This document shows, piece by piece, positions 2,400 through 58,136 of a DNA stretch of 64,000 bases. The position numbers and the translations under genes were made by a program. Every line of letters starts with the position of its first letter. Within the stretch, counting starts at the first letter, position 1. The stretch is taken from assembly GCF_000018545.1 (NCBI RefSeq), contig NC_012587.1:2542001-2606000 (forward strand). The letters are read 5' to 3'. This stretch comes from Sinorhizobium fredii NGR234. Lineage in GTDB: Bacteria; Pseudomonadota; Alphaproteobacteria; Rhizobiales; Rhizobiaceae. The notes under the pieces are model-generated. The model searched no databases. It was not told the origin of the DNA and was given only the letters and a program-made list of their open reading frames with translations.

Positions 2400-3455
2400 T
2401 CAGGTAGCCTCGTGCCAAGCCTGCCCCAGAACTCTCAGCCAGTTCTCGCGGCATATTCTTGTCAGCTCGCGGTCACCATATCCGGCGCCCTTGAGCGCCG
2501 CAACGAGCTTCTGATTGCCCGCGGCATCGGCAATTTCCTCGGGAATCGTCGCCCCATCGAAGTCCGAGCCGAGCGCTACGCAGTCGATGCCGACCCGCTC
2601 GACCATGTAGTCGACGTGGCGCACCATGTCGGAGAGCGGCGTCGCCGCATTTTCCTGGCCATCGGCGCGCAGCATGGTCGTCGCATAGTTGAGCCCGACC
2701 AGGCCGCGGCTCTCACGGATGGCATCGAGCTGCCTGTCCGTGAGGTTGCGGGCGACCGGTGTCAGGACATGGGCATTGGAATGGCTGGCGACGAGCGGCT
2801 GGTCGGTGGTCTTTGCCACGTCCCAGAATCCCTTTTCGGTGATGTGGGCGAGATCGATCAGGATGCCGAGCCGATTGCAGGCTCGCACCAGTTCGAAGCC
2901 GGCCTCGGTGAGGCCCGGCCCCGTGTCCGGCGACGACGGATAGGCGAAGGGCACGCCGTGGCCGAAGACATTGTGGCGGCTCCAGACCGGTCCGAGCGAG
3001 CGCAAGCCGGCCGCATGAAAGGTCTCGAGCGCGGCGAGGTCCGGCCCGATCGCCTCGCAGCCTTCCATATGCAGGACGGCCGCAAAGATGCCGTCGGCGA
3101 TCGCCCGGTGGATTTCGCCGGTCGAGCGGCAGAGCCGCCAGGCCCCGGCCCGGTCAAGCCTCATGGCGATGTCGGCAAGCTCGATCGCCGTAACCAGCGA
3201 CGGCAAGCGGTCGAGCGGCTCGGACAAAGGCGTCGCGTAGTGGCCGTTCCTGTCCGGCGTTCGCAAGACCAGATCGCCCGATGGAATATAGATGGCGCAC
3301 AGGCCGCCGGCGAGGCCGCCCGCTTTGGCGCGCGGCGCATCGATATGGCCCTTGTCCGTCCCTTCGACGAATTCGGCGATCGGGTCGGTTCCACCGCGCG
3401 CATGCTGCCAAAGGCGCAAAAGCACGTCGTTATGGCCGTCGAAAACCGCCTGCAT
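2400..3455 (-). CDS. Membrane dipeptidase (peptidase family M19)
   Basis: Zinc dipeptidase of the renal dipeptidase family, 351 residues, first gene of the peptide-uptake operon. Metal ligands expected for M19 are visible: His8 and Asp10 in FDGHNDVLLR, Glu131 in HMEGCEAIG, His204 in LIDLAHI, and His225/His229 in SHSNAH. The motif ALGSDFDG near residue 295 is also typical. The ATG at 3455 is chosen over a TTG two codons upstream; AAGGAAA precedes it. There is no signal peptide, so it should act in the cytoplasm on imported dipeptides. Some M19 enzymes cleave D-amino-acid dipeptides; stereospecificity cannot be told from sequence. Confidence 0.92.
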   Translation of the reverse strand: MQAVFDGHNDVLLRLWQHARGGTDPIAEFVEGTDKGHIDAPRAKAGGLAGGLCAIYIPSGDLVLRTPDRNGHYATPLSEPLDRLPSLVTAIELADIAMRLDRAGAWRLCRSTGEIHRAIADGIFAAVLHMEGCEAIGPDLAALETFHAAGLRSLGPVWSRHNVFGHGVPFAYPSSPDTGPGLTEAGFELVRACNRLGILIDLAHITEKGFWDVAKTTDQPLVASHSNAHVLTPVARNLTDRQLDAIRESRGLVGLNYATTMLRADGQENAATPLSDMVRHVDYMVERVGIDCVALGSDFDGATIPEEIADAAGNQKLVAALKGAGYGDRELTRICRENWLRVLGQAWHEAT

Positions 3456-3777
3456 TCCCAAGTTTCCTTTGTTATTTCAGGGAGATCGGATGGATCATTC
3501 GCCGTTGCCGCATCCGGTCAGGGATGTGGCGATGCTATTGAAAGACATCAGCCATTTCAATGAATTTCCGGGGGATTTCCGGGTCAGGCCCTGTAGCGAA
3601 AAGTTGCCTGCCCAGGGAGATCGACCGGGGCTCGGCAGTCCGGGAGAATCAGAAAAAACGTCAGGCAGGGTGTCCTGACCGACAAAAATCTGCCATTCCT
3701 TCCGGGAAGAGCGAACGCTGTCCGATAGTCGCCGGTCATGACGACCGGTGCGAGTTGTGCTCAAGAGGGGGCTCGGG
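3456..3777. other. Divergent intergenic region between dipeptidase and lipoprotein genes
   Basis: No coding frame here is convincing on either strand. It must hold both divergent promoters. One inverted repeat stands out: ATTGAAA at 3537-3543 and TTTCAAT at 3555-3561 with an 11-bp spacer, which could be an operator. No canonical sigma-70 box pair was identified with confidence. Confidence 0.5.
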
Positions 3778-11139: not shown

Positions 11140-12087
11140 ATGAACGGCTTCGACTTCCGCCGCCTGCGCCGCTGGGAATGGGCGCTCGCCGTCTTCGCAC
11201 TCTCGACGCCCTTCCTGCTGCCGGCGCTCGCGCCTGGCCCGGCGTCTCTTATAAGCCCGGCGATGGCCGAGACCGTCGAGAAGCCGGACACGTCCCGAGT
11301 CGTATCGATCGGCGGCGCGGTGACCGAGATCATCTATGCGCTCGGCGAGGAAAACCGGCTCGTTGGCCGCGATTCGACAAGCACCTACCCCGAGGCCGCG
11401 GCGAAGCTCCCCAATGTCGGCTATATGCGGCAATTGGCGCCGGAGGGTATTATCGCCGTCAACCCAGCGGCGATCGTGGCGATCGAAGGCAGCGGCCCAC
11501 CCGAAGCGCTTGCCGTGCTGAAGCAGGCGAACATCCCCTTCACGACGGTCGCCGAGGCCTACGACAAGGCGGGCATCCTTGCCAAGATTCGCGCCGTCGG
11601 CGCTTTCCTCGGTGTTTCCGAGAGGGCCGAAGCGCTTGCCAAGTCCGTCGAGCACGATCTGGACGCCGCCCTTTCAGACAGCGCCGCGCGCCCCGACAGC
11701 GAGCGCAAGCGCGTCCTCTTCATTCTCAGCGCCCAGGGCGACAAGATCATGGCCTCGGGCACCGGCACGGCGGCCAGCGGCATTATCGAGCTTGCCGGCG
11801 CGATCAATGCGACCGGCGATTTTCCCGGCTACAAGCCGCTGACCGACGAGGCGATCATCAAGGCAAGGCCGGACGTCATCCTGATGATGGATCGGAGCGG
11901 AAGCCATGCGGCAAGTCCGGATGAACTCTTCGCTCTTCCGGCGCTCAGCCTGACGCCGGCGGCGAAAAGCAAGGCGCTTGTCCGCATGGACGGGTTGCAC
12001 CTGCTCGGTTTCGGCCCACGCACCGCAAGCGCGATCCGCGAACTGAACACGGCAATCTACGGAAAAAAGACCAATGCCTCCCAGTGA
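11140..12087 (+). CDS. hmuT: Periplasmic haem-binding protein HmuT
   Basis: 315-residue class III binding protein. The signal region is MNGFDFRRLRRWEWALAVFA with probable cleavage after AMAE. Tyr95 in NVGYMRQLAPEGI corresponds to the haem-coordinating Tyr of ShuT/PhuT. The backbone-helix region and SAQGDKIMASGTGTAASGII fit the family. GAGGAGACACGGG provides a strong ribosome site before the ATG at 11140. Its last 14 bp overlap hmuU, implying translational coupling. Confidence 0.95.
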   Translation: MNGFDFRRLRRWEWALAVFALSTPFLLPALAPGPASLISPAMAETVEKPDTSRVVSIGGAVTEIIYALGEENRLVGRDSTSTYPEAAAKLPNVGYMRQLAPEGIIAVNPAAIVAIEGSGPPEALAVLKQANIPFTTVAEAYDKAGILAKIRAVGAFLGVSERAEALAKSVEHDLDAALSDSAARPDSERKRVLFILSAQGDKIMASGTGTAASGIIELAGAINATGDFPGYKPLTDEAIIKARPDVILMMDRSGSHAASPDELFALPALSLTPAAKSKALVRMDGLHLLGFGPRTASAIRELNTAIYGKKTNASQ

Positions 12088-13195
12088 GGCGATAGACGGC
12101 GCGCGCGGACCTGCCTTCGCTGCCAGAATCACCCACGCGCGGCAGAAAGGCGACCGCTCCGGTCTGGCGCGCATGCTCATTGCGGCGCTTGCAGTGCTTG
12201 CCGCCGTGACTTTCGCAGCCTCGATCATGACAGGCGCCGCCGACGCTTCGCTCGGCAATGTTCTCGGTTGGCTTGCCGGCCAGACGCCGGCCGACCAGGC
12301 CCTGAGCATGCGCGACCGCATCATTATCCTCGATATCCGCCTGCCGCGCGCGGTGCTCGGCATGCTGGTCGGCGCCGCGCTCGCCGTTTCCGGAGTCGTC
12401 ATGCAGGGGCTGTTCCGCAATCCGCTCGCCGATCCCGGCCTTGTCGGCGTGTCCTCCGGCGCGAGCCTCGGCGCCGTACTGCTCATCGTCCTCGGCAGTA
12501 CCACCTTCGGTCCGGTTTTTGCGCTCTTCGGCTTCTACGCGCTGCCGCTCGGCGCCTTCTGCGGCGGCTTCGCCACCACCATGCTTCTCTACCGCATCTC
12601 CACACGCAGCGGTCGGACCTCGGTGGCGACGATGCTGCTGGCAGGGATAGCGCTCGGCGCACTCGCCAATGCGGTGACGGGCGTGCTCGTCTTCGTCGCC
12701 GACGACAAGCAGTTGCGCGATCTGACCTTCTGGGGATTGGGTTCCCTGGCCGGTGCCAATTGGACGAAAATTTTCGCCGCCGGCCCGATCATTCTCCTGT
12801 CGCTTGGCGTCGTCCCCTTCCTGGCGCGCGGCCTCAACGCGGTCACGCTCGGCGAGGCGGCCGCCTTCCACATGGGCGTGCCGGTACAGCGCCTCAAGAA
12901 CATCGCCATTTTCAGCGTCGCTGCGGCAACCGGCGCCTCGGTCGCGGTCAGCGGCGGCATCGGCTTCGTCGGCATCGTCGTGCCGCATCTTCTGCGCCTC
13001 GTCATCGGCCCGGATCACCGCTACCTTTTGCCGGCTTCGGCGCTGCTCGGCGGCACCATGCTGATCTTCGCCGACATGCTGGCCCGCACGATCGTTTCTC
13101 CGGCCGAACTGCCGATCGGCATTATCACCGCCTTCGTCGGTGCGCCGTTCTTCCTGTGGGTTCTGCTCCGCGGTCGCTCGAATATGGGGCTTTGA
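12074..13195 (+). CDS. hmuU: Haem ABC transporter permease HmuU
   Basis: 373-residue FecCD/BtuC-type permease with about ten helices. Family motifs include LDIRLPRAVLGMLVGAALAV, GVVMQGLFRNPLADPGLVGV, FVADDKQLRDLTFWGLGSL and GGIGFVGIVVPHLLRLVIG. The ATG overlaps the end of hmuT. The stop is two bases before the left TA of a MITE-like element that separates it from the ATPase gene hmuV. Confidence 0.96.
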   Translation: MPPSEAIDGARGPAFAARITHARQKGDRSGLARMLIAALAVLAAVTFAASIMTGAADASLGNVLGWLAGQTPADQALSMRDRIIILDIRLPRAVLGMLVGAALAVSGVVMQGLFRNPLADPGLVGVSSGASLGAVLLIVLGSTTFGPVFALFGFYALPLGAFCGGFATTMLLYRISTRSGRTSVATMLLAGIALGALANAVTGVLVFVADDKQLRDLTFWGLGSLAGANWTKIFAAGPIILLSLGVVPFLARGLNAVTLGEAAAFHMGVPVQRLKNIAIFSVAAATGASVAVSGGIGFVGIVVPHLLRLVIGPDHRYLLPASALLGGTMLIFADMLARTIVSPAELPIGIITAFVGAPFFLWVLLRGRSNMGL

Positions 13196-13199
13196 CCTA

Positions 13200-13464
13200 G
13201 GGTCAGGACCTATTAAATTCATCCATTCTGTTCCGGTCCATGGGATTGGATGGAAGAAAACAAGCGTAAGGCAAGACCCTGAGGTCTTGTCGAGCATTGT
13301 TTTCGATCAGACGGCCCATGGACCGGAACCCGAAGGGCGCGGTGGATTTCGCGCCTGGACTGCGTCGGAAAGATTTGAAAATGTTCGGCATTTCCAGCAT
13401 CTTCCCTCCTAGCCAGACACGAAATCCACCGCGCAGAATGGATGAATTTAATAGGTCCTGACCC
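13200..13464. mobile_element. MITE-like element with nested hairpins between hmuU and hmuV
   Basis: A 265-bp insertion flanked by TA on both sides (13198-13199 and 13465-13466). Counting the TA, the termini form a perfect 33-bp inverted repeat (13198-13230 and 13434-13466). Two internal perfect hairpin pairs follow: 13231-13244 with 13315-13328 (14 bp), and 13337-13351 with 13420-13434 (15 bp). There is no transposase. TA duplication is typical of IS630/Tc1-mariner derivatives. Folded, it makes a cloverleaf-like four-way structure. It ends two bases before the hmuV ATG. Confidence 0.85.
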
Positions 13465-13468
13465 TAAG

Positions 13469-14257
13469 ATGATCCACGCTTCCGACATCTCCGTCAGCCT
13501 CGCTGGCCGGCCCGTGCTCCACGGCGTCTCGTTTGAAGCGGTGCCCGGAAGAATGACGGCGATCGTCGGTCCGAACGGCTCCGGCAAGACGACGACCTTG
13601 AAGGCGATCTCGGGCGAGCTTCACCTCACCAAGGGCAAGGTGACCATCAACGGTCATGACATCGCCCGACTGAGACCATGGGAACTCGCCTTGAAAAGGG
13701 GCGTCCTGCCGCAATCGACGGTGATCTCCTTCCCGTTCACGGTCCGGGAGATCGTTGGCCTCGGTCTTTCGACAGGCGGTGCCGAAGTCGCGGGCAAGGG
13801 TCGCACCGTCGATGATGCGCTCGAAGCCGTCGATCTCGCCGGCTTTTCCGGCCGCTTTTACCAGGAACTGTCGGGCGGCGAGCAACAGCGTGTCCAGCTT
13901 GCCCGCGTGCTTTGCCAGATCGCCGCGCCGGTCCGCGACGGCGAGCCGCGCTATCTCCTGCTCGACGAGCCGGTGTCGAGCCTCGATATCCGCCACCAGC
14001 TGACCATCATGCAGCTGGCGCGGCATTTCTGCGAACAAGGCGGCGGTGTCGTAGCGGTGATGCACGACCTCAACCTAACGGCGATGTTCGCCGACCAGAT
14101 GGTGATGATGAAAGCCGGCCGCATCCGCGCCCTCGGCGCGCCGAAGGATGTGCTTACCGACGAGACCATGGAAGCGGTGTTCGGATGCCGGATGCAGGTC
14201 GGCATCGCGCCGGCCCGCGATGTCCCTTTCGTGCTGCCGCAAACGGCGTCGCTCTGA
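13469..14257 (+). CDS. hmuV: Haem ABC transporter ATPase HmuV
   Basis: 262 residues. Walker A is GPNGSGKT at 34-41, signature LSGGEQQRVQLARVL near 138, Walker B YLLLDEP near 170, and the H-loop in VVAVMHDLN. The ATG at 13469 gives the normal N terminus MIHASDISVSLAGRP. An in-frame ATG at 13442 inside the MITE would add nine residues (MNLIGPDPK). Because the element ends right at the gene, the native ribosome site is gone. TAGG at 13452-13455 is the nearest candidate, with a long spacer, so expression relative to hmuU may be altered. Confidence 0.95.
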   Translation: MIHASDISVSLAGRPVLHGVSFEAVPGRMTAIVGPNGSGKTTTLKAISGELHLTKGKVTINGHDIARLRPWELALKRGVLPQSTVISFPFTVREIVGLGLSTGGAEVAGKGRTVDDALEAVDLAGFSGRFYQELSGGEQQRVQLARVLCQIAAPVRDGEPRYLLLDEPVSSLDIRHQLTIMQLARHFCEQGGGVVAVMHDLNLTAMFADQMVMMKAGRIRALGAPKDVLTDETMEAVFGCRMQVGIAPARDVPFVLPQTASL

Positions 14258-54770: not shown

Positions 54771-55916
54771 GTGGATTGATCGAGACAGAAGATTCCGGAT
54801 TGGGATTCCCAAGGAGGGTTCGGTGTGCAAGATTGAGGCATGCGCACCGGTATTGAATTTCACGTCAGAGCCTCCGACAGAACCCGCCTCGAAGCCATCG
54901 TTGCGAACCGCAGTTCGCCGCAGAAACATGTGTGGCGCGCGCGGATCATCCTGTTAAGCGCCGACGGCCTGGGAACGGTGGCGATTATGGCGGCGACCGG
55001 CAAATCGAAGACCTGCGTCTGGCGATGGCAGGAGCGTTTCATGGCCGAAGGCGTCGATGGTCTTCTGCGTGACAAGAGCCGGCCACCGGGCACCGCGCCC
55101 CTGGAGCGTGAGTTGGTCGAGCAGGTGGTCGCGCTGACGCTGGAGCCACCCCAACAGGAAGCCACCCACTGGACCGTTCGTGCAATGGCAAAGGCGGTCG
55201 GGATTGCGGCGTCTTCGGTCGTCAAGATCTGGCACGAGCATGGCCTTGCGCCGCACCGCTGGCGCCGCTTCAAACTGTCGAATGACAAGGCTTTTGCCGA
55301 GAAACTGCATGACGTTGTCGGGCTCTACGTCGCACCGCCGGCCCATGCCATTGTCCTTTCCGTCGACGAAAAGAGCCAGATCCAGGCGCTCGACCGCACC
55401 CAGCCGGGGCTTCCTTTGAAGAAGGGTCGGGGTGGCACGATGACCCATGATTACAAACGCCATGGCACCACCACCCTGTTTGCCGCCCTCAATGTGCTCG
55501 ACGGCTCGGTGATCGGCCGCAACATGCAGCGCCACCGGCATCAGGAGTTCATCCGTTTCCTCAACGCCATTGAGGCCGAACTCCCGAAGGATAAGGCGGT
55601 CCATGTGATCCTCGATAACTACGCGGCACACAAACAACCCAAAGTCCGCGCCTGGCTGGCCAGACATCCACGATGGACCTTCCACTTCGTTCCGACATCC
55701 TGTTCATGGCTGAATGCCGTCGAGGGATTCTTCGCAAAGCTGACACGCCGGCGCCTCAAGCACGGCGTTTTTCACTCCGTCGTCGACCTGCAGGCGGCCA
55801 TCAATCGCTTCATCAAAGAGCACAACCAAGAACCGCGACCGTTCATCTGGAAAGCTGACCCAGACGACATCATCGCGGCCGTCAAACGTGGGCACCAAGT
55901 GTTGGAATCAATGCAC
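54771..55916 (+). mobile_element. IS630-family insertion sequence (1,146 bp)
   Basis: Short terminal inverted repeats GTGGATTGAT (54771-54780) and ATCAATGCAC (55907-55916), 9 of 10 matching, flanked by TA at 54769-54770 and 55917-55918, the target duplication of IS630/Tc1-mariner elements. It carries one intact transposase gene. Exact TA flanks and an intact target frame imply a recent insertion. Confidence 0.92.
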
Positions 55917-55919
55917 TAG
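54840..55919 (+). CDS. IS630-family transposase
   Basis: 359 residues, intact. N-terminal HTH region with KSKTCVWRWQERFMAEGVDG and a second HTH (HWTVRAMAKAVGIAASSVVK). DDE core: Asp in VLSVDEKSQIQALDR, Asp in VILDNYAAHK and Glu in CSWLNAVEGFFAKLTRR. The stop codon TAG uses the TA target duplication plus the next chromosomal base, so the reading frame closes only at this junction or other TA-G/A sites. Confidence 0.95.
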   Translation: MRTGIEFHVRASDRTRLEAIVANRSSPQKHVWRARIILLSADGLGTVAIMAATGKSKTCVWRWQERFMAEGVDGLLRDKSRPPGTAPLERELVEQVVALTLEPPQQEATHWTVRAMAKAVGIAASSVVKIWHEHGLAPHRWRRFKLSNDKAFAEKLHDVVGLYVAPPAHAIVLSVDEKSQIQALDRTQPGLPLKKGRGGTMTHDYKRHGTTTLFAALNVLDGSVIGRNMQRHRHQEFIRFLNAIEAELPKDKAVHVILDNYAAHKQPKVRAWLARHPRWTFHFVPTSCSWLNAVEGFFAKLTRRRLKHGVFHSVVDLQAAINRFIKEHNQEPRPFIWKADPDDIIAAVKRGHQVLESMH

Positions 55920-56423: not shown

Positions 56424-58136
56424 CTAGAACAGGAAGTACCGCTGCGCCATCGGCAGCACGGTCGCCGGTTCGCAGGTCAGCAGCACGCCGTCGGCGCGCA
56501 CCTCATAGGTCTCCGGATCGACCTCGATATGCGGCGTCAGGCTGTTGTGGATCATCGACGCCTTGCCGATGCCGCCACGGGTGTTCTGGACGGCGACGAG
56601 TTCCTTGGCGACGCCGAGTCTTCCCGCCAGTCCGGCATCGAGCGAGGCCTGCGAGACGAAGGTGACCGAGGAATTCGTCCGGCTCCGGCCATAGGCGCCG
56701 AACATCGGCCGGTAGTGGACCGGCTGCGGCGTCGGGATGGAGGCGTTCGGATCGCCCATCGGCGCCGCCGCGATCGTGCCGCCGAGCAGCACCATGTCCG
56801 GCTTGACGCCGAAAAAGGCCGGATTCCAGATGACCAGATCGGCGCGCTTGCCGACTTCGAGCGAGCCGATCTCGTGGCTGAGGCCATGGGCGATCGCCGG
56901 GTTGATCGTATATTTGGCGACGTAACGCCTGACGCGGAAATTGTCGTTGTCGCCGGTCTCCTCCTTCAGCCGGCCGCGCTGGCGCTTCATCTTGTCGGCC
57001 GTCTGCCAGGTGCGGATCGCCACCTCGCCGACGCGGCCCATCGCCTGGCTGTCGGAGGAGATGATCGAGAAGGCGCCGATGTCGTGAAGGATGTCTTCCG
57101 CCGCGATCGTCTCCTTGCGGATACGGCTCTCGGCAAAGGCGATATCCTCCGGGATCGACGGCGACAGGTGATGGCAGACCATCAACATGTCGAGATGCTC
57201 GGCAAGCGTGTTCTGCGTATAGGGCCGCGTCGGGTTGGTCGAGGACGGGATGACGTTCGGCTGACCGCAGATTTTGATGATGTCCGGCGCGTGGCCGCCG
57301 CCGGCCCCTTCGGTGTGGAAGGCGTGAATTGTCCGCCCCTTGATCGCCGCGATCGTATCCTCGACGAAGCCGCTCTCGTTCAGCGTATCGGTGTGGATCA
57401 TCACCTGCACGTCGTATTCGTCGGCAACCGAGAGGCAGCAATCGATCGCCCCGGGCGTCGTACCCCAATCCTCGTGCAGCTTCAGCGAGGTGGCGCCGCC
57501 GAGCACCATTTCGACGAGCGCGCCGGGCAGCGAGGCGTTGCCCTTACCGGCAAAGGCGAGATTCATCGGGAAGGCATCGGCCGCCTCGATCATCCGGGCG
57601 ATGTGCCACGGCCCCGGCGTGCAGGTCGTCGCCAGCGTGCCGTGCGCCGGGCCCGTGCCGCCGCCCAGCATGCAGGTCAACCCGCTCATCAGCGCCTCTT
57701 CGATCTGCTGCGGGCAGATGAAATGGATGTGGCTGTCCATGCCGCCGGCGGTGACGATCTTGCCCTCGCCGGCGATCGCCTCGGTGCCCGGGCCGACGAT
57801 GATGTTCACGCCCGGCTGCGTATCCGGATTGCCGGCCTTGCCGATTGCGGCGATCCGGCCGTCCTTGAGCCCGATATCCGCCTTGACGATCCCCCAGTGG
57901 TCGACGATCAGCGCATTGGTGATGACCGTGTCGACCGCGCCGCCCTCGCGCGACACCTGGCTCTGGCCCATACCGTCACGGATGACCTTGCCGCCGCCGA
58001 ACTTCACCTCCTCGCCATAGGTGGTGAAGTCCTTCTCGACCTCGATGAAGAGTTCCGTATCGGCAAGCCGCACCTTGTCGCCGACGGTCGGACCGAACAT
58101 GTTGGCATAGGCCGCACGCGACATTTTGTAGGACAT
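56424..58136 (-). CDS. ureC: Urease alpha subunit UreC
   Basis: 570 residues, catalytic subunit. Nickel ligands: His136 and His138 in [14 protein letters not shown], carbamylated Lys219 in [12 protein letters not shown], His248 and His274 ([15 protein letters not shown]). The mobile flap Cys321 is in [13 protein letters not shown]. Hydrolyses urea to ammonia and carbamate. AAGGAG lies inside the end of the upstream gene, three bases of spacing between the genes, so translation is coupled. Confidence 0.98.

Follow-up and report, generated by a model that had tools for sequence, protein, structure and literature searches.

The window analysed here is a 64-kb stretch of the genome of Sinorhizobium fredii NGR234 (6.89 Mb in three contigs) and covers positions 2542001-2606000 of contig C3. 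Within it, a permease gene is followed on the same strand by an ATPase gene, and the two are separated by an element whose 5' edge lies 2 nt past the permease TGA and whose 3' edge lies 2 nt before the ATPase ATG at 13469. The gene names hmuU and hmuV come from an earlier sequence-only reading and were tested via the Pfam families FecCD and ABC_tran, which are compatible with them. The features of the locus, in window coordinates, are as follows.

12074-13195, + strand: hmuU-type FecCD permease gene, stop TGA 13193-13195 (reading frame; Pfam FecCD, E 1e-93)
13198-13199, no strand: target TA, left duplicate (relatives' empty sites have one TA)
13200-13230, + strand: left terminal inverted repeat (TIR), 31 bp without the TA, its terminal GGGTCAGGACCTATTAA matching the right end of an insertion sequence (IS) (arm pairing; IS end comparison)
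13230-13329, + strand: hairpin 1 (H1), module reading inward on the + strand (pairing, fold, covariation, wobbles)
13329-13337, + strand: inter-hairpin junction CCCGAAGGG (sequence)
13337-13434, - strand: hairpin 2 (H2), module reading inward on the - strand; R2 model match at 13333-13434, minus (pairing, covariation, model)
13434-13464, - strand: right TIR, 31 bp without the TA (arm pairing)
13465-13466, no strand: target TA, right duplicate (relatives' empty sites)
13442-13468, + strand: possible upstream start inside the right TIR, giving an MNLIGPDPK extension in frame with the ATPase (reading frame; no clear Shine-Dalgarno)
13469-14257, + strand: hmuV-type ABC ATPase gene (reading frame; Pfam ABC_tran, E 1e-27)

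The sequence-only reading had described perfect 33-bp TIRs and two hairpins at 13198-13466, placed exactly between hmuU and hmuV, and both the structure and the placement were confirmed. In the self-complementarity of the window, the 33-nt terminal arms, TA included (13198-13230 and 13434-13466), are 100% complementary and enclose two back-to-back hairpins with stems at 13230-13244/13315-13329 (15 nt, 100%) and 13337-13358/13413-13434 (22 nt, 91%). The minimum free energy of the element as RNA is -167.8 kcal/mol, compared to a shuffle mean of -80.9 (z -16.6), and its fold as DNA has a z of -15.7, with 0/200 shuffles as low in either case. As the outer TA pair is a target-site duplication, the element proper spans 13200-13464, a total of 265 bp with perfect 31-bp TIRs, and the list of reading frames contains no transposase gene within it.

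Within the 64-kb window, a search with the family model found no second copy of the element, and a search with its 15-bp end, allowing up to 3 mismatches, found no further copy. A known Rfam RNA was rejected as its identity, as there was no covariance-model match to the element at gathering scores in the window and no match in six element loci at E values up to 1. The promoter search gave a single weak match in the element (9/12), straddling its left edge, and the sole terminator-like match of the terminator search falls outside of it. Elsewhere in the window, Rfam 5_ureB_sRNA matches 57695-57984 on the + strand (121.8 bits; gathering score 40), antisense to a urease alpha-subunit ORF (56424-58136, minus), and this match may be a mere reflection of conserved coding sequence.

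A dispersed family with a fixed plan

The element is a miniature inverted-repeat transposable element (MITE): it is short, has TIRs and a TA duplication, occurs in several dispersed copies, and lacks a transposase gene. The model search located the family at 8 places in the NGR234 genome, its 11 matches including places hit on each strand, and these copies form two subfamilies that differ in their ends. The second subfamily comprises five copies (C3:374459, 418650, 1264859, 1304292, and 3295194; L278-L282) that have the ends TAGAGCCTTTCCTGG and the same two-hairpin plan. By BLAST, matches were found in 41 of 100 genomes, NGR234 included, with full-length identities as low as 68%; for one genome, G099, BLAST listed short end matches only, yet its elements share the plan. 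R1, a covariance model built on the interior of the element, matched 75 of 297 genomes of the order, NGR234 included, and 46 of 123 genera, as well as 24 of 385 genomes in the class sample (23 of these outside the order) and 24 of 398 in the phylum sample (7 of these outside the class). R1 favours full-length matches, and with 5 or 7 candidates scored per genome, its copy numbers per genome are to be read as at least the values found. Five places from four of the seven out-of-class genomes were inspected, and all five have long complementary ends beyond the R1 model, which was not trained on these ends; four of the five fold into two hairpins, and the best fold of the other (L373) pairs both hairpin regions together. 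The 19-bp end, which alone is no proof of an element, also occurs in named records of Mesorhizobium, Nitratireductor, Novosphingobium, Sphingorhabdus, Thalassospira, and Amylibacter, and R1 gave 65 matches, both strands counted, on the 80 loci from the 19-bp-end search. The plasmid collection yielded 6 records, none of which covers 80% of the query.

Length is strongly constrained among these copies, with 66 of 85 distinct elements (105 places minus 10 at edges and 10 identical) measuring 266-270 bp. When elements were located through their ends only, 64 of the 107 lengths between ends were 260-269 bp and another 15 were 830-869 bp, the latter representing the IS. Shortened forms of 158-231 bp are present, some of them with one hairpin missing or reduced. 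In the open-licence literature searched, no description of the structured mobile family was found.

A Brucella gallinifaecis record (L205) holds two family copies within 3 kb, at 560-811 and 3315-3566. In two species, the copies L283 (G014:C2:103783-104152) and L284 (G029:C7:130287-130651) carry the same kind of ~101-bp two-hairpin repeat inside hairpin 2, which may be RIME1-like. The repeat, which in G014 reads TACAGCGCC...CATGCAG, is inserted at a CTAG, and the site is CCTAGCC in the window copy and CCTA[..]TAGCC in L283 and L284, an apparent TA duplication. The two nested repeats may derive from one shared old insertion or from two independent ones.

Target sites and stop codons

A TA is present at both ends of 71 of the 85 elements and is missing from one or both ends of the other 14, a count biased upward by a script that rewarded a terminal TA. 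The counts of neighboring bases are free of this bias, and among the TA-ended elements, Y precedes the left TA in 67/71 and R follows the right TA in 69/71. In a YTAR target, a TA that occupies the first two positions of a codon necessarily belongs to a TAA or TAG stop, and the first G of the element turns such a target stop into TAG. After removal of six TA-ended elements with short flanks, 65 could be classed, 25 in a stop codon, 36 intergenic, and 4 overlapping a called gene; the corresponding numbers for control YTAR sites in the same flanks are 23, 291, and 222. Stop codons are thus the site of 25/61 elements vs 23/314 control sites (odds ratio 8.8, p 3.6e-10), where gene calls are our own rather than annotation and the copies are non-independent. 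When stratified by 4-mer, the odds ratio is 7.4, with little contrast for CTAG alone (9/29 vs 5/32). In L131, L179, and L203, the element ends genes on both sides. A second count, from the ends-only search, placed 17/58 MITEs and 0/5 IS copies in stop codons; the 59 elements it classed, measuring 255-290 bp, comprise 17 in a stop, 41 between genes, and 1 in a gene, after removal of 10 with short flanks and 9 without TA, and many of the loci had been chosen for holding an element. Elements of other lengths were in a stop codon in 6/9 cases. The hmuUV copy, 2 nt past a TGA, is not itself in a stop codon.

There is an even chance that this excess simply reflects survivorship, with an element that has no preference and insertions elsewhere that harm the host. 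Insertion into TAA or TAG regenerates TAG and would hence be mild, and only 4/65 classed elements overlap a called gene. However, the comparison was already restricted to non-coding YTAR sites (25/36 vs 23/291), and convergent neighbors, at 16/59 vs 32/172, are not strikingly enriched. Promoter harm could explain part of the excess.

Conservation of the fold

Across 16 elements, two-sided changes occur at 73 of 97 pairs, and the covariation score was 0.424, compared to a shuffled mean of 0.151 and at most 0.091 for slid structures, a comparison in which the scored structure is favoured, having been derived from the same 16 sequences. Read inward from the nearer end, H1 and H2 each present, by eye, a stem followed by GCRCARG-like bases and then a stem-loop followed by TCRAG-like bases. 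Local scores were higher for H1 against the reverse complement of H2, rc(H2), than for H1 against H2 in 24 cases, with 16 losses and 10 ties (n=50; p 0.006). A model of the rc(H2) module, built from 46 sequences, has two-sided changes in 29/29 pairs and matches the inward strand of H1 in 4/38 loci (E 7.5e-5, 0.0036, 0.005, and 0.43) and its outward strand in none. In 4 loci, though, this model hits H2 itself on the outward strand as well (E 0.0011 to 0.37), and scores of this kind are therefore due in part to palindromy. From these comparisons, H1 and H2 are likely a homologous module in inverted orientation.

The mismatches within the stems bear on the strand on which each hairpin may act. 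Among single mismatches within Watson-Crick-only folds of 50 non-redundant elements, the numbers of G-T and A-C are 30/32 in the TIRs, 47/9 in H1, and 12/52 in H2. The H1 wobbles occupy scattered positions, and H2 has recurrent ones. Within clusters (11 clusters, 50 sequences), the same counts are 26/8 for H1, 21/31 for H2, and 23/24 for the TIRs. This pattern argues fairly firmly that selection has acted on single-stranded pairing of the inward strand of H1, and it suggests the same, less strongly, for H2, as the H2 asymmetry leans partly on recurrent positions and is only slight within clusters. Over its full length, the element folds equally well on either strand, and a one-strand RNA structure for the whole of it was rejected for this reason.

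An alternative that is somewhat less likely than not is that the interior pairing is a by-product without function, with the similarity between arms maintained through template switching or inherited from a palindrome and only the ends mattering for mobility. Consistent with this, the TIR arms, for which no wobble rule is needed, covary too (two-sided change in 18/31 pairs) and have no wobble asymmetry, and shortened forms lacking all or part of one hairpin do exist. However, correction between arms predicts no asymmetry of G-T over A-C anywhere, contrary to the counts for H1 and H2, and the unpaired loop bases and the element length are conserved across families. It is unlikely that the wobble asymmetry arose from biased mutation of the strands transcribed at the ends of genes instead of selection for single-strand folding. 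If genes read in from either side, H1 and H2 should be biased in opposite directions and the paired TIRs not at all, which is what the counts show, but a deamination-type bias would favor C>T, and the recent, within-cluster H1 wobbles comprise 13 C>T and 13 A>G.

Empty sites and the probable mover

In the relatives G015 and G008, the junction reads TGA-CC-TA-AG-ATG, and in the window it reads TGA-CC-TA-[265 bp]-TA-AG-ATG. None of the 28 readable same-genus relatives (L040-L067; a 29th locus, L068, was unreadable) has the element, and their permease stop and ATPase start are 1-9 nt apart; the insertion at hmuU-hmuV is lineage-specific. Empty sites at two loci, this one and that of the second-subfamily copy C3:1264859, identify the target-site duplication as TA. 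At the latter, 8/8 relatives shown have a single TA, for example GTGGCTT-TA-GACC in a relative vs GTGGCTT-TA-[269 bp]-TA-AACC in NGR234, and this TA belongs to the TAG of the frame ..GGG-TGG-CTT-TAG (frame assigned by eye). A third copy, at C3:612158, common to the relative G021, has altered ends and no clean TA duplication.

The single-TA empty sites bear out the proposal of the sequence-only reading that the element is a MITE-like mover with a TA duplication, and its expectation of copies in other genomic places holds as well, given the 8 places in NGR234 and the copies elsewhere. Its statement that the element replaces the native intercistronic signals is right in that the spacer is interrupted, but the native 6-nt CC-TA-AG is still there, split by the insertion.

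The 19-bp end has one further site in the NGR234 genome; it lies on the 536-kb contig and is the right end of an element of 839 bp whose frames match DUF4096 and DDE_Tnp_1/DDE_Tnp_1_2 in Pfam. Judged by its size, domains, and 2-bp duplication, this partner is an IS5-family element of the IS427 type. Listed IS427 members are mostly 832-865 bp with 2-bp duplications (PMC3281130), and IS711 of Brucella has a YTAR target with TA duplication (PMC2266754). The GGGTCAGGACC ends are shared with IS that bear a DUF4096/DDE_Tnp_1 transposase, the family has the YTAR target and the 2-bp TA duplication, and both ends of the MITE are closer to the IS right end (GGGTCAGGACCTATTAA) than to its left end (GGGTCAGGACTCGTTAA). 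The frames of the resident 839-bp IS are pieces of 86, 80, and 112 aa, the 80-aa piece having no Pfam match, and this copy, being in three pieces, may be inactive; in an element from G098, there are two frames (122 and 130 aa) that overlap. For the ends of subfamily 2 (TAGAGCC; TAGAGCCTTTCCTGG), no IS carrying them was found in the NGR234 genome, only a solo 33-bp arm at C2:1938445. At L082 (G139:C1, near 4703713), two IS-length stretches of 849 and 869 bp with IS427-type ends abut at a shared boundary, 1501-1502, an arrangement suggestive of insertion of one stretch right at the other's end.

The sequence-only reading had favored a Tc1/mariner-IS630 type of mover, while stating that the ends do not match the IS630 copy at 54.8 kb of the window. 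That copy, the ORF at 54840-55919, encodes a transposase with DDE_3 and helix-turn-helix domains, and the window search (15-bp end, up to 3 mismatches) indeed found no element-like ends near it. An IS630 origin, which would account for the TA duplication, is very improbable and was dropped, as the ends match those of DUF4096/DDE_Tnp_1 elements of the IS5 family and not DDE_3 ones, in a search of IS630 ends that was non-exhaustive. The weakest alternative, with practically no likelihood, is that the element is native to the hmu operon and regulates it: this would explain the exact fit between both genes, but the 28/28 empty junctions rule it out, copies occupy unrelated places, and the compensatory changes that might have marked such an element, which do exist, are spread over a dispersed mobile family rather than found at this junction.

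Predicted effect at hmuU-hmuV

The insertion has lengthened the hmuU-hmuV spacer from 6 nt to 273 nt. The native 6-nt spacer suggests that hmuU and hmuV were translationally coupled, and the very stable structure now lying between them probably uncouples hmuV from hmuU, so that the most likely effect of the element would be to lower hmuV translation and the level of HmuV. Some coupling could persist, as the closing stem, if formed, would bring the stop and the start close together again. No clear Shine-Dalgarno sequence precedes either ATG 13469 or ATG 13442, and the in-frame ATG at 13442 provides a possible start that would add the nine residues MNLIGPDPK to HmuV.

Discussion

Given the evidence presented here, we conclude, with a probability of roughly 0.8, that the element is a MITE of a structured family, moved by an IS5/IS427-type system and inserted in a YTAR target with duplication of TA. 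An IS427-type transposase would recognise ~17 bp at each end and act in trans, and insertion into YTAR would produce the TA duplication. The plan that emerges for the family, mostly at 266-270 bp, is a 33-bp TIR (TA included), a hairpin, a CCCGAAGGG-like junction, an inverted hairpin of the same type, and a second TIR. The fold may be kept by selection on single-stranded nucleic acid, with each hairpin acting on the strand read inward from the end closer to it, and the 3' untranslated region of a gene ending on either side would then be a hairpin in a defined orientation. At hmuU-hmuV, the very stable structure would separate two probably coupled genes and lower the translation of hmuV.

We suggest more tentatively, and consider it somewhat doubtful at this point, that this is an ancient family across several classes that carries a strand-specific module twice, in inverted orientation, and serves as a self-inserting, two-way 3'-end cassette of RNA or single-stranded DNA, often placed in a regenerated stop codon and selected for its fold. 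Bacterial MITEs are usually viewed as decayed insertion sequences. The family described here keeps one architecture, with two-sided pair changes, over classes of the phylum and differing terminal sequences. If the fold is indeed selected, the cargo of this mobile element would be a function of structured nucleic acid in place of a gene, and its insertions would rewrite the 3' ends of genes. Selection on structure in MITEs is now open to testing in a rhizobium with 8 copies.

Among known systems, the closest are the IS427-type IS, including IS711 of Brucella, which have the same YTAR target, TA duplication, and near-identical ends, the partner being 839 bp with DUF4096 and DDE domains. The element differs in having no transposase, in having two ends that both resemble the IS right end, and in its two covarying hairpins, which have no counterpart in the IS. 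RIME, the Sm repeats, and the ABC motifs of rhizobia, as well as Bru-RS of Brucella, are also palindromic intergenic repeats of the same order. RIME and Bru-RS are about 100 bp in length.

The bcr1-bcr18 elements of Bacillus cereus, ERIC, NEMIS, and RUP are likewise short, TIR-bearing, and intergenic, and structured bacterial MITEs often lie within transcribed UTRs (PMC3446304, PMC3733652). In contrast to these, the present family has one architecture with differing terminal sequences in several classes of the phylum and is often found in stop codons. REP/REPIN with RAYT consist of an inverted hairpin pair, as does the element, and REP ends often supply TAG stops (PMC3733652), so the principle of stop regeneration has a precedent. 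REPs are 20-40 bp and linked to IS200/IS605 (PMC3733652). Membership in REP/REPIN was rejected on size (265 bp vs 20-40 bp) and on the TA duplication; the element is set apart from them by this duplication, its long TIRs, and its DDE-type partner ends.
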